From assembly GCF_007570865.1 (NCBI RefSeq), contig NZ_VLPS01000001.1, positions 186,001 through 250,000 of the forward strand: DNA of 64,000 nt, given 5' to 3'. Source of the stretch: Atlantibacter subterraneus (GTDB taxonomy: Bacteria > Pseudomonadota > Gammaproteobacteria > Enterobacterales > Enterobacteriaceae). The position numbers were made by a program, and so were the translations under genes. The notes under the pieces were generated by a model. The model saw nothing but the letters and a program-made list of their open reading frames with translations. It was not told the origin of the DNA and did no database searches. Each line of letters opens with the position of its first letter. Within the stretch, counting starts at the first letter, position 1. Shown piece after piece: positions 22,720 to 27,610 of this stretch.

Positions 22720-23458
22720 AACTGCCGTTGCCGCCGCCTTTGGCCGCGCCGCCGCGCACTATGACAGGCATGCCGCGTTTCAGCGTGAAAGCGGCGAGCG
22801 GCTGTTGCGGCTGCTGGATAAAACGTCGTTTGCCCGGGTGCTCGACGCGGGGTGCGGCACCGGCTACTTCAGCCGCTACTGGCAGCAGCAGGGGAGTGGC
22901 GTGACGGCGCTGGATCTCTCCGACGCGATGCTCAGCGCCGCCGAGGCGAATCAGGCGGCGCAGCGCTATCTGCAGGGTGATATTGAAAACCTGCCGCTGG
23001 CAGCGGAAAGCGTCGACTTAGCCTGGAGCAACCTGGCGGTGCAGTGGTGCAGCGATCTTGCTGATGGGGTCCGTGAGCTTTGGCGCGTAACGCGCCCCGG
23101 CGGACGTATCGCCTTCAGCACCCTGGTGGCCGGATCTCTCGACGAGCTGCACCAGGCATGGCGCGGCGTGGATAACGCCTGCCACGCCAATACGTTTTTG
23201 CCCGTCGAGACGGTGCTGGAAGCCTGCGCGCCATATCCGCTGCACTGGCAGCAAAGCCCGTTGACGCTGAATTTCGCCGATCCGCTCAGCGCCATGCAGT
23301 CGCTGAAGGGCATTGGCGCAACCCACCTTCATCGCGGGCGCGAAAATCGGGTATTGACCCGCAGCCAGCTACAGCAGCTGGCGCTGGCCTGGCCGCAGCA
23401 GGGCGGACGTTATCCGCTGACCTATCAACTTTTTTGTGGAGTCATAATCCGTGAGTAA
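22700..23458 (+). CDS. bioC: Malonyl-ACP O-methyltransferase
   Basis: SAM-dependent methyltransferase that masks malonyl-ACP so that fatty acid synthesis can build the pimeloyl chain. The 252 residues contain the SAM loop [15 protein letters not shown] near residue 45 and [12 protein letters not shown]. The frame starts inside the end of bioF and overlaps bioD by 8 bases, typical of the tightly coupled bioBFCD operon. Confidence 0.94.
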
Positions 23459-24128
23459 ACGCTGGTTCATCACCGGAACCGATACCGAAGTGGGCAAAAC
23501 CGTCGCCAGCTGTGCGTTATTGCAGGCGGCAAACCGCGCGGGCTACCGCACAGCCGGATATAAGCCCGTTGCTTCCGGCAGCGACCTCACCCCTGAGGGC
23601 GTGCGCAACGGCGATGCGCTGGCGCTTCAGCGCAACAGTTCGCTGGCGCTGGGATATAGCGAAGTTAACCCGTACGTGTTTGAAGAACCCACTTCGCCGC
23701 ACCTGGTGAGCCGTACGACAGGCATCGCCATTGAACGCGCCGTGATATCACAGGGGCTGGCGGCGCTGGAACAGAAAGCCGACTGGGTGCAGGTGGAGGG
23801 CGCTGGCGGCTGGTTTACCCCGCTCAGTGAAACCTGGACCTTTGCCGAGTGGGTGAGGGAACAACAGTTGCCGGTGATCCTGGTGGTGGGCGTGAAGCTG
23901 GGCTGCATCAATCACGCCATGCTGACCGCCGCTGCGGTGCAAGCCGCCGGGCTGCGGCTGGCGGGATGGATCGCCAATGACGTTACGCCGCCTGGCGCAC
24001 GCCATCAGGACTATTTAGCCTCGCTGCAGGCGCGTATCCCCGCGCCGATGCTGGGCGAAATCCCGTGGCTTGACGACCCGTTTACCCAGGATACGGGCCG
24101 TTTTCTGGATATCTCCCTGCTGGATTAG
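23451..24128 (+). CDS. bioD: Dethiobiotin synthetase
   Basis: ATP-dependent carboxylation of DAPA to dethiobiotin. The 225-residue protein has the P-loop [13 protein letters not shown] near residues 8-20, the PVASGSD segment and the [12 protein letters not shown] motif. It starts with GTG inside the end of bioC. Its stop overlaps the stop codon of the convergent ABC ATPase gene by 4 bases. Confidence 0.95.
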
Positions 24129-24835
24129 CAGTGAATCAAGGGCAGCAGGCGCGGGTTATCAAGCTGCGCCACGCTGCCCTGGGCCACGCTTCTGCCCTTA
24201 TGCAACAGACAGAAGCGCTCGGCGACGCGGCGAATAAACGACATCCGCTGCTCCACCATCAATATCGACAGGCCGAAATCTCGGTTCAGCCGCAGCAGCA
24301 CATCCCCCAACTTGTGAATAAACCCGGCGCTGTTGCCGCGCGTCGGCTCATCGAGGATCAGTAATCTCGGTTGAATGACCAGCGCATTCGCCAGCGCCAG
24401 CCGCTGCTGATTTTCATCGCTCAACGCCGCGCCGCGCGTGTGGCGCAGCGGATAAAGCTCGGGAAACAGCGTAAAGGTTGATTCCGGGATCGCGCCGTGG
24501 GTTTCTCCGGCGGCGCGCAGGGCGATTTGCAGGTTCTCCTCCACCGTCAGGCCGGAAAAAATCCGCCGGTCGTGCGGCACGTAGCCGATGCCCAGCGCCG
24601 CGCGCATATCGGCGCTGGCGTCGTTCAGCTGCTGCGGCGCAAGCCCACCATGCCGCCAGACGATAGTGCCGCTCTGTACCGGCAGATGCCCGGTAATGCA
24701 GTTCAGCAGCGTGGTTTTGCCCATCCCCTGCGCACCGGTAATGCAGATGCACTCTCCCGGCAGCATCTCCAGATCTACATTCCATAAAACATGGCGTTCA
24801 CCATAAAACTGATTCACTGAATGCAAACTCAACAT
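24125..24835 (-). CDS. Lone UrtE/LivF-like ABC ATPase with altered Q- and signature loops
   Basis: A 236-residue nucleotide-binding protein closest in pattern to UrtE/LivF, the second ATPase of urea and branched-chain amino acid importers. Walker A is intact (GAQGMGKTT, residues 34-42), as are Walker B (LLILDEPTRG, near 158) and the LMVEQ switch region. Two loops deviate: the Q-loop reads IGYVPHDRRIF (His88 in place of the usual Gln), and the signature reads ALSDENQQRLAL (139-143) instead of LSGGQ. No permease, binding protein or second ATPase lies nearby. An AGGAG site precedes the ATG. A sigma54-like promoter and NtrC-like site lie upstream. It may be a remnant of an urt operon or a re-purposed ATPase. 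No function is assigned. Confidence 0.8.
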   Translation of the reverse strand: MLSLHSVNQFYGERHVLWNVDLEMLPGECICITGAQGMGKTTLLNCITGHLPVQSGTIVWRHGGLAPQQLNDASADMRAALGIGYVPHDRRIFSGLTVEENLQIALRAAGETHGAIPESTFTLFPELYPLRHTRGAALSDENQQRLALANALVIQPRLLILDEPTRGNSAGFIHKLGDVLLRLNRDFGLSILMVEQRMSFIRRVAERFCLLHKGRSVAQGSVAQLDNPRLLPLIHC

Positions 24836-24874
24836 AAGCGCTCCTGGGTTGTACCGCGGCGGATTCAGGGATGC

Positions 24875-24890
24875 TGCAATTCCTCTGCCA
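24875..24890 (-). promoter_or_regulatory. Sigma54-type promoter of the ABC ATPase gene
   Basis: On the minus strand the bases read TGGCAGAGGAATTGCA: the -24 GG and -12 GC have the exact sigma54 spacing and only one of the core consensus bases (TGGCAC-N5-TTGCA) differs. A start site about 12 bases downstream would leave a leader of some 28 bases with AGGAG before the ATG at 24835. Confidence 0.6.
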
Positions 24891-24985: not shown

Positions 24986-25023
24986 TGCACTTTAACAGTG
25001 CTTTAACATTCAGCGCTGGTGCA
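24986..25023. promoter_or_regulatory. NtrC-like sites upstream of the ABC ATPase promoter
   Basis: GCACT and AGTGC with a 5-base spacer (24987-25001) give the geometry of an NtrC dimer site. A GGTGCA half-site follows, its inferred centre 21 bp away. They lie roughly 120-150 bp upstream of the predicted start, a usual enhancer distance. Confidence 0.5.
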
Positions 25024-25181: not shown

Positions 25182-25204
25182 TTATCCACTATTCCTGTGG
25201 ATAA
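25182..25204. promoter_or_regulatory. Facing pair of DnaA-box-like sequences
   Basis: TTATCCACT (25182-25190, one mismatch to TTATNCACA) faces TGTGGATAA (25196-25204, the complement of a perfect TTATCCACA) across 5 bases. They lie about 390 bp before uvrB. Confidence 0.5.
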
Positions 25205-25329
25205 CCTTGTGCATTAGAGTTAGAAAACTGGTGGGAAGCGAGAGAATACGCGGCTTGCGCATGAATTGACGCGAAAGGCGGCTGATAAAAATTTAGCTTA
25301 TTTTCCAATAGATTATATAAAAGCAATGG

Positions 25330-25499: not shown

Positions 25500-25519
25500 T
25501 ACTGGTTTTTTATCCAGTC
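25500..25519. promoter_or_regulatory. LexA box of uvrB
   Basis: TACTGGTTTTTTATCCAGTC has CTG-N10-CAG with good flanks and sits about 70 bp before the uvrB start, as in E. coli. It makes uvrB inducible by DNA damage. Confidence 0.88.
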
Positions 25520-25588: not shown

Positions 25589-27610
25589 ATGAGCAAACCC
25601 TTCAAACTCAATTCCGCTTTTACGCCCTCCGGCGACCAGCCAGAGGCGATCCGCCGTCTGAAAGAGGGGCTTGAGGATGGCCTTGCCCATCAAACGCTGC
25701 TTGGGGTAACCGGCTCGGGGAAAACGTTCACCGTGGCGAACGTGATTGCCGATTTGCAGCGCCCAACCATGGTGCTGGCACCCAACAAAACCCTGGCGGC
25801 GCAGCTGTATGGCGAGATGAAAGAGTTCTTCCCGGATAACGCCGTGGAGTATTTCGTTTCTTACTACGATTACTACCAGCCTGAAGCCTACGTGCCGAGC
25901 TCTGATACCTTTATCGAGAAAGACGCCTCGGTGAACGAACACATCGAGCAGATGCGTTTATCCGCCACCAAAGCGCTGCTCGAACGCCGGGACGTGGTGG
26001 TGGTGGCGTCGGTGTCTGCCATCTACGGTCTGGGCGACCCGGATCTGTATCTCAAGATGATGCTGCACCTCACAAACGGCATGATTATCGACCAGCGCGC
26101 CATTCTGCGCCGGCTGGCGGAATTGCAGTACACCCGCAACGATCAGGCGTTCCAGCGCGGTACCTTCCGGGTGCGCGGCGAGGTGATCGACATCTTCCCG
26201 GCGGAATCGGATGACATGGCGCTGCGCGTGGAGCTGTTCGATGAAGAAGTGGAGCGGCTGTCGCTGTTTGACCCGCTCACCGGCCAGGTGGAAGGGGTGA
26301 TCCCGCGCTTTACCATCTACCCGAAAACCCACTACGTGACGCCGCGCGAGCGCATCGTGCAGGCGATGGAAGAGATCAAGGTGGAGCTGGCGGATCGCCG
26401 CAAGGTGCTGCTGGCCAATAACAAACTGCTGGAAGAACAGCGCCTGACCCAGCGCACCCAGTTCGATTTAGAGATGATGAACGAGCTGGGTTACTGCTCG
26501 GGCATCGAAAACTACTCGCGCTATCTCTCCGGGCGCGGGCCGGGCGAAGCGCCGCCAACCCTGTTTGACTACCTGCCTGCCGACGGCCTGCTGGTGGTGG
26601 ATGAATCCCACGTGACCATCCCGCAAATCGGCGGCATGTACCGTGGCGACCGGGCGCGTAAAGAGACCCTGGTAGAGTACGGCTTCCGGCTGCCTTCGGC
26701 ACTGGATAACCGTCCGATGAAATTTGAAGAATTCGAAGCGCTGGCCCCGCAGACCATTTACGTGTCGGCCACGCCGGGCAACTACGAGCTGGAAAAATCG
26801 GGCAGCGAGATTATTGACCAGGTGGTGCGTCCTACCGGGCTGCTCGATCCGGTTATCGAAGTACGACCGGTGGCGACCCAGGTGGACGATCTGCTGTCGG
26901 AAATCCGCAAGCGCGCCGCCATCAACGAGCGCGTGCTGGTCACCACCCTGACCAAACGCATGGCGGAAGACCTGACTGAATATCTCGAAGAGCACGGCGA
27001 GAAGGTGCGCTATCTGCACTCGGATATCGACACCGTGGAGCGTATGGAAATCATCCGCGACCTGCGTCTGGGCGAATTTGACGTGCTGGTGGGGATTAAC
27101 TTACTGCGCGAAGGCCTGGATATGCCGGAAGTCTCGCTGGTGGCGATTCTGGACGCCGATAAAGAGGGCTTCCTGCGTTCCGAACGCTCGCTTATCCAGA
27201 CCATTGGCCGCGCGGCGCGTAACGTTAACGGCAAAGCGATCCTCTACGGGGATAAAATCACCCCGTCGATGGCCAAAGCCATTGGCGAGACCGAACGCCG
27301 TCGCGAGAAGCAGCAGCGCTATAACGAAGAGCACGGCATCGTGCCGCAAGGGCTTAACAAGAAGGTGGTGGATATTCTGTCGCTGGGCAGCGGTATCGCC
27401 AAAACCCGCAACAAAGGCAAGGGGAAAGCACGCAGCGCCGCCGAGGTGGAAGCAGCAGAACTGGCGCTTACGCCAAAAGCGCTCCAGCAGAAAATCCATC
27501 AGCTGGAAGCGCAGATGCTGCAACATGCGCAAAATCTGGAGTTCGAAGAGGCTGCGGCTATCCGCGATCAGCTGCACCAGCTGCGCGAACTGTTTATCGC
27601 TGCCTCCTGA
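25589..27610 (+). CDS. uvrB: Excinuclease ABC subunit B
   Basis: The damage-verifying helicase-like subunit of nucleotide excision repair, loaded by UvrA and bound by UvrC. The 673 residues match E. coli UvrB. Walker A is [12 protein letters not shown] near residue 39, the beta-hairpin is [12 protein letters not shown] near 92-103, DESH is the helicase motif II, and TIGRAARN is motif VI. The C-terminal UVR domain ([28 protein letters not shown]) binds UvrC. CAGG precedes the ATG. It is convergent with yvcK, 9 bases apart. Confidence 0.98.

Follow-up and report, generated by a model that had tools for sequence, protein, structure and literature searches.

ABC ATPases are thought to act as sandwich dimers, which need the LSGGQ signature. 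UrtE has UrtD as its natural partner, and LivF works with LivGHM. In TM287/288 and CFTR, degenerate-site NBDs keep intact Walker motifs beside a broken signature, and these domains are fused to or co-encoded with a partner NBD and membrane domains. As regards expression, glnA, glnK, nac and glnH are NtrC/sigma54 genes of E. coli, and the scavenging genes glnA, glnK-amtB and nac display an NtrC dyad upstream of a GG-N10-GC promoter. The gene considered here, found in the window (the whole stretch of 64,000 nucleotides that was analysed), shares this arrangement of motifs, but its product is an orphan ABC domain; we refer to it as the lone gene (Table 1).

Profile searches place the lone ATPase in the ABC superfamily (PF00005, 83.8 bits for a cut-off of 25). 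Among NCBIfam models, UrtE (TIGR03410) scores best, its 209.7 bits lying under the curated cut-off of 285.8, while the LivF model (NF008626) yields 121.6 bits for a cut-off of 441. The protein has the length of UrtE and keeps its A-loop, Walker A and Walker B; unlike UrtE, it has no LSGGQ and no urtABCD beside its gene, and its family shows a relaxed D-loop, Trp60 and a new Ser94-Gln95 pair. The AlphaFold2 model (mean pLDDT 92.4) has an NBD fold, which Foldseek matches to 1ji0 and LptB with E about 1e-22. This fold is shared with LivF and with 1ji0 of Thermotoga maritima, the best PDB match by both sequence and fold, although the latter is only about 32% identical. In contrast to TM287/288 and CFTR, no partner ATPase adjoins the gene, which lies between bioD and uvrB; the nearest other ABC-ATPase match in the window is ∼13 kb away. 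The sequence-only reading, which had described a complete ABC ATPase with intact Walker motifs, His88 in the Q-loop, SDEN at the signature and no partner ATPase nearby, was accurate on all these features of the window protein.

The host genome (4.6 Mb) carries a canonical urt operon on a different contig. Its UrtD scores over the TIGR03411 cut-off, the other subunits and a carboxylase-type gene behind the operon being named by gene order or reading, and a Liv-type cluster was likewise assigned by reading. The nearest named relatives at the lone gene are Atlantibacter records, 96–99% identical. An Rfam scan returned nothing useful, and the lone gene was not found listed in the open-licence literature searched, the main texts of PMC12316311 and PMC3415461 included.

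Table 1. Features of the lone-gene locus in window coordinates
Feature	Position	Strand	Remarks
Lone ATPase gene	24125..24835	(-)	236 aa, UrtE-derived ABC ATPase; open frame of 236 codons
bioD	23451..24128	(+)	convergent neighbour; overlaps the 3' end of the lone gene by 4 nt
uvrB	25589..27610	(+)	divergent neighbour
Walker A, GAQGMGKTT	24710..24736	(-)	residues 34-42
Q-loop position 88	24572..24574	(-)	His in window protein (YVPHDRR); from family comparison
ABC signature position	24410..24424	(-)	LSDEN for LSGGQ, residues 138-142
Walker B, LLILDEPT	24341..24364	(-)	residues 158-165, with catalytic Glu163
sigma54-type -24/-12 motif, TGGCAGAGGAATTGCA	24875..24890	(-)	score 10 of 11; starts 55 nt before the ATG
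NtrC-type dyad, GCAC-N7-GTGC	24987..25001	(.)	starts 111 bp above the start of the sigma54 motif

A profile of the lone family, built from 33 proteins and searched against 392 genomes of the GTDB family, matched 144 of them at 258 bits or more, the next matches listed reaching at most 236 bits. Reading of the DNA at 245 loci put 166 rows, with 150 distinct proteins between them, next to bioD and/or uvrB and 78 next to urtC/urtD, and left one unassigned. Many of the carriers are bacteria of the gut or of plants. The lone class is defined by this bioD and/or uvrB adjacency (166/166); every match of at least 258 bits fell in it, and none of its rows was classed as urt-linked. LSGGQ is present in all 78 urt-linked rows, and SGG in none of the 150 distinct lone proteins. 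Wherever bioD was found it is convergent (147/147 loci), with an overlap in 76 of them. At the same place between bioD and uvrB, copies labelled 'ATP-binding cassette domain-containing protein' are found in Klebsiella pneumoniae (WP_004152853.1) and in Enterobacter hormaechei (UWA12369.1). The Klebsiella and Enterobacter records are deposited as plasmids, although a Klebsiella one of 5.4 Mb is probably a chromosome. In the record of K. pneumoniae strain 176, the gene aligns in two pieces with no CDS listed (L287:6001-6689), which may reflect a broken copy or a sequencing error; L288 has the gene intact. Outside the GTDB family, 46 genomes matched, and the eight with loci checked were urtD-linked with LSGGQ. 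E. coli K-12 is without the gene, 578 bases separating its bioD and uvrB, and a search of an E. coli collection with the lone-gene DNA, of limited sensitivity, gave no match. Several of the lone-negative genomes, among those listed, are small and symbiont-sized.

Regarding its origin, a tree of the 33 lone proteins, 28 UrtE from urt loci, the host UrtE, LivF and LivG was inferred by a quick method, the long LivF/LivG outgroup rows being flagged by the program. The lone proteins form one clade (SH-aLRT 100) nested in gammaproteobacterial UrtE (SH-aLRT 97), and the three enterobacterial UrtE rows branch off outside this group. Basal lone proteins have a median identity of 50–57% to other gammaproteobacterial UrtE and of 43–47% to enterobacterial UrtE. 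Most simply, an ancestral UrtE would have survived the loss of its operon, the present urt operons of these bacteria being of a different lineage. By descent, the lone ATPase belongs to the UrtE branch; by its features, it is not a UrtE. A recent duplicate of the host urtE, which the sequence-only reading had named as an argument against a new role, was rejected by the identity of only 36% between the two proteins and by their separate clades. The lone-gene tree agrees moderately with that of bioD plus uvrB: the two have 8 of 27 splits in common, with a single starred conflict and a Spearman coefficient of 0.61, so that vertical descent is likely rather than proven.

The pooled dN/dS of the lone gene is 0.115 over 133 close pairs, from which we conclude that the gene is functional. 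At the same loci, the ratio is 0.144 for bioD (131 pairs), 0.194 for bioC (118) and 0.025 for uvrB (132), a ranking that, as regards bioD and bioC, leans towards the lone gene, the close pairs having been picked by its own dN and dS. These pairs replaced a median of 0.33 computed over 1207 pairs, some of them distant and saturated. Within Atlantibacter, the ratio lies between 0.025 and 0.106 and is below that of bioD in nine of ten pairs. The open frame had been taken as an argument against a dead gene, and rightly so: it is intact, and decay, with a ratio near 1 as its expected mark, was rejected on the close pairs. Similarly, the proposed remnant of a lost urt operon is right about origin only, its origin within UrtE being borne out and the label of remnant being at odds with an intact, selected gene. 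A decaying remnant, which we hold to be scarcely tenable and already contradicted, would draw on UrtE ancestry, on the lost signature, on the absence of a convincing remnant in all 31 lone-negative loci examined (of 85; uvrB outside the locus in 4) and on the one K. pneumoniae record in two alignment pieces without a CDS. It is opposed by a dN/dS far below 1, by conserved promoter motifs and by the matches listed, none of which has an internal stop, save one that is the gene's own (the in-frame TGA in G476, rejected as a sign of decay).

This selection acts at the level of the protein and is an argument against a reading based on the transcript, in which nitrogen-induced convergent transcription into bioD would dampen the biotin operon. 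The convergent arrangement at all loci with bioD and the frequent overlap would suit such an effect; however, ∼1 kb with other frames separates the two genes in some genera, and we regard this reading as very improbable. Selection also extends to the altered signature, whose dN/dS within genera (0.117) is like that of the remainder of the protein (0.114), with a dN about twice as high. The signature is thus constrained within genera, each lineage keeping its own version.

The residues that were kept and lost by the lone family were compared over 87 positions near-invariant in UrtE, using cis and trans sets that are the canonical motif positions and were fixed after the entropies had been seen. 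The cis ATP-binding residues have a mean entropy of 0.12 bits, a value as low being met in one of 20000 random sets of the same size, whereas the trans residues (variable Walker A positions, LSGGQ, D-loop and switch position) reach 2.18 bits, a value attained by none of the 20000. The conservation of a coupling-groove set was not unusual (P 0.135). Lys40, Asp162 and Trp60 are invariant (150/150 each) and Glu163 nearly so (149/150); the single exception, L233 (G491), reads LDQP, with a Gln for the catalytic Glu that follows Walker B. Among the two motif changes to which the sequence-only reading gave weight, and whose conservation it proposed to check, the loss of the signature holds for the whole family. 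His88 should carry no weight and was rejected as a family trait, position 88 being Gln in 138 of the 150 proteins, His in 4, Glu in 4, Arg in 2, Lys in 1 and Gly in 1; Gln88 is even found in G695 (L154), which belongs, with four other genomes, to the genus of the window. An acidic residue occupies one of positions 140-142 in 124/150 proteins, and Asp or Glu stands in 96/150 at position 141, which we take by motif alignment to be that of CFTR Gly551. The Walker A positions 35-36, which face the signature in a sandwich, are changed as well. Besides these losses, the family gained Asn45, Ser94, Gln95, Arg131 and Arg215, and the segment after the Q-loop is conserved (F93 and N101 in 99/99, S94 in 93/99, Q95 in 92/99).

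Upstream of the gene stands a putative sigma54/NtrC-type promoter, recognised from its motifs, that had been missed by the sequence-only reading; transcription would start near 24864. A sigma54 motif scoring at least 9 of 11 occurs in 148/150 loci within 400 nt and in 149/150 within 450 nt, vs 3.1% of base shuffles, 47 of 750 dinucleotide shuffles and 4/150 on the opposite strand. A perfect NtrC dyad at most 250 bp above it is found in 134/150 loci (0.5% of base shuffles), and one with no more than a single mismatch in 146/150, at a median distance of 111 bp. The shuffles for both motifs preserve base content, dinucleotide shuffles being run for the sigma54 motif. Over 95–98 anchored loci, the motif arms are near 2 bits and most flanking columns below 0.3 (highest 0.72). 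Positions that were not scored are also conserved, namely the G after TGGCAN (1.44 bits) and the A after GTGC (1.45 bits), both of which fit the consensus sequences. The two motifs are found together in 48 of 49 genera and are present in K. pneumoniae and E. hormaechei.

As a positive control, the same scan recovered both motifs at E. coli glnA, glnK and nac (with one mismatch in the nac dyad), missed glnH, and reported both at none of 12 other genes tested, which helps the promoter reading. Moreover, the joint motif is seen at 136/152 lone loci vs 3/85 lone-negative loci, where the -12 part is TCGC. A strict joint pattern has a single match in the window (0.02 in shuffles) and a single one in the 4.6-Mb genome, at the lone gene, with 0 in the reversed control. 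Being derived from the lone gene and finding no other NtrC promoter of the genome, this pattern is stringent, not calibrated, and it shows rarity, not regulon membership. Host urtA displays no good sigma54/NtrC site within 400 nt upstream of its start codon, whose position is uncertain, and a sigma70-type scan gave nothing useful. In 28 loci, 282–402 nt separate the sigma54 motif from the ATG; among these long-spacer loci (L107, L108, L168, L178, L189, L195 and others), several contain the inverted repeat TGTCAGAAATATGACA, and the long spacer could be an extra regulatory layer.

The idea of an ATPase re-used for another purpose agrees with purifying selection, a conserved place, a single clade and conserved promoter motifs. 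Our preferred reading, which we hold with moderate confidence, is that the gene is induced through NtrC/sigma54 and that its product, an ATP-binding protein derived from UrtE, serves nitrogen scavenging and has lost the ability to close the canonical NBD sandwich. A stand-alone ABC domain issued from gammaproteobacterial UrtE was retained at bioD-uvrB in Enterobacterales without adjoining urtABCD. At low nitrogen, phosphorylated NtrC on the dyad would activate sigma54 polymerase at the -24/-12 motif. The protein is expected to bind ATP via its intact pocket (A-loop Tyr, Walker A, Walker B and catalytic Glu). The canonical head-to-tail sandwich would not be closable, because the signature, the D-loop and the Walker A residues opposite have departed from those that it uses; an acidic residue often stands at the point where the signature contacts the gamma-phosphate. 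The lone ATPase might then take part in nitrogen scavenging, with urea as the best lead, as an accessory or switch subunit with ATP bound; its docking partner would either differ from a canonical NBD or provide the signature in trans. If nothing gives the signature in trans, the conserved Glu163 is hard to explain and counts against this reading. More tentatively, we propose an ABC-domain protein of a new kind, an ATP switch induced by nitrogen starvation that would operate without an NBD sandwich, through a non-transporter partner, across many Enterobacterales including Klebsiella and Enterobacter.

Glu163 is accounted for by an asymmetric pair, in which a full NBD of UrtD/LivG type would give its LSGGQ to the lone site; of the two sites of this heterodimer, seated on a urea or amino-acid permease, a single one would be live and the other dead. 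The natural pairing of UrtE with UrtD and the intact Walker B Glu beside a varying signature are in favour of this possibility, as is the presence of a UrtD or LivG-like match in 136 of the 144 carriers ('LivG-like' being assigned from E-value bands of a UrtD model). However, the facing Walker A positions are changed too, and eight of the 144 carriers have no such match at 1e-40, yet the lone gene there shows a dN/dS of 0.043–0.084 within groups (most dS values being saturated) and keeps its sigma54 motif. Since selection persists in these eight carriers, UrtD or LivG is unlikely as an obligate partner, a role for which both were rejected, and some other NBD may fill it. We consider the asymmetric pair unlikely on the whole. 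Alternatively, the lone ATPase could be a decoy that, in nitrogen starvation, competes with UrtE/LivF for docking on a permease and so tunes transport. The conserved segment after the Q-loop and the nitrogen-type promoter motifs would be compatible with this role, which has no need for Glu163 and hardly explains why the gene is kept where UrtD/LivG matches are absent; we judge it improbable.

Under the preferred reading of an ATP-binding protein of nitrogen scavenging, urea is the natural candidate. In Klebsiella oxytoca, nitrogen starvation raises the expression of the ure and urt operons, for which NtrC/sigma54 is suspected by the authors of the study (PMC8381380). Where UrtD or LivG-like matches exist (224 genomes), UrtD is present in 107/136 carriers vs 28/88 non-carriers (odds ratio 7.9, uncorrected for descent). 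A tree was available for a second set, the 224 genomes with a readable bioD, which holds 140 of the 144 lone-positive ones. In its 11 pairs differing in the lone gene, urt agrees in 6.2 and opposes in 0.5 (median p 0.0625), urease in 6.6 and 1.3 (median p 0.125), and urt or urease in 6.9 and 0.4 (median p 0.031); the tree-corrected association is thus only suggestive. In all five tree-set genera that vary for the lone gene, urease is present in the species with the gene and absent from those without it; urt follows in four of these genera and is absent throughout the fifth. Of the five nearest pairs, a single one differs in hutH and a single one in phnJ, the two controls. Among ten deeper greedy pairs, those agreeing and opposing number 4 and 2 for urt, 2 and 3 for urease, and the controls vary as much. 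Overall, the association of the lone gene with urease has a p of 0.15. Of the 140 carriers in the tree set, 36 are without UrtD, 100 without urease (the window's genome among these) and 28 without both, and 36 of the 84 lone-negative genomes have UrtD or urease. A sixth genus (g16) stands outside the tree because its member G739 has no true bioD; G739 has UrtD and no lone gene, an exception that hurts the urea lead. Beyond the five genera, the link to urea is weak.

The family offers a natural case for asking what an ABC domain does without the sandwich, as LSGGQ is gone from all its members, under selection, and the ATP pocket is kept. Besides, the lone gene is a candidate member of the NtrC regulon in Klebsiella and its relatives, one hidden from studies of E. 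coli K-12, since this strain is without the gene.

Finally, some minor features of the region deserve mention. A presumed LexA-type box, ACTGGTTTTTTATCCAGT, assigned by consensus, lies at 25501-25518 before uvrB, ∼670 bp from the lone gene, and is flagged by the scan as terminator-like. Two sequences that we take by consensus to be DnaA-box-like are found at 25188-25206 upstream of uvrB. In Cedecea and some relatives, the lone gene and bioD are separated by ∼1 kb that holds small frames (L014:5716-6509), and the same insert place is seen in genera g7, g166, g171 and g150. Where read, the small frames are of 172–175 aa, with a second one of about 86–99 aa, and by eye they could form a toxin-antitoxin-like pair.
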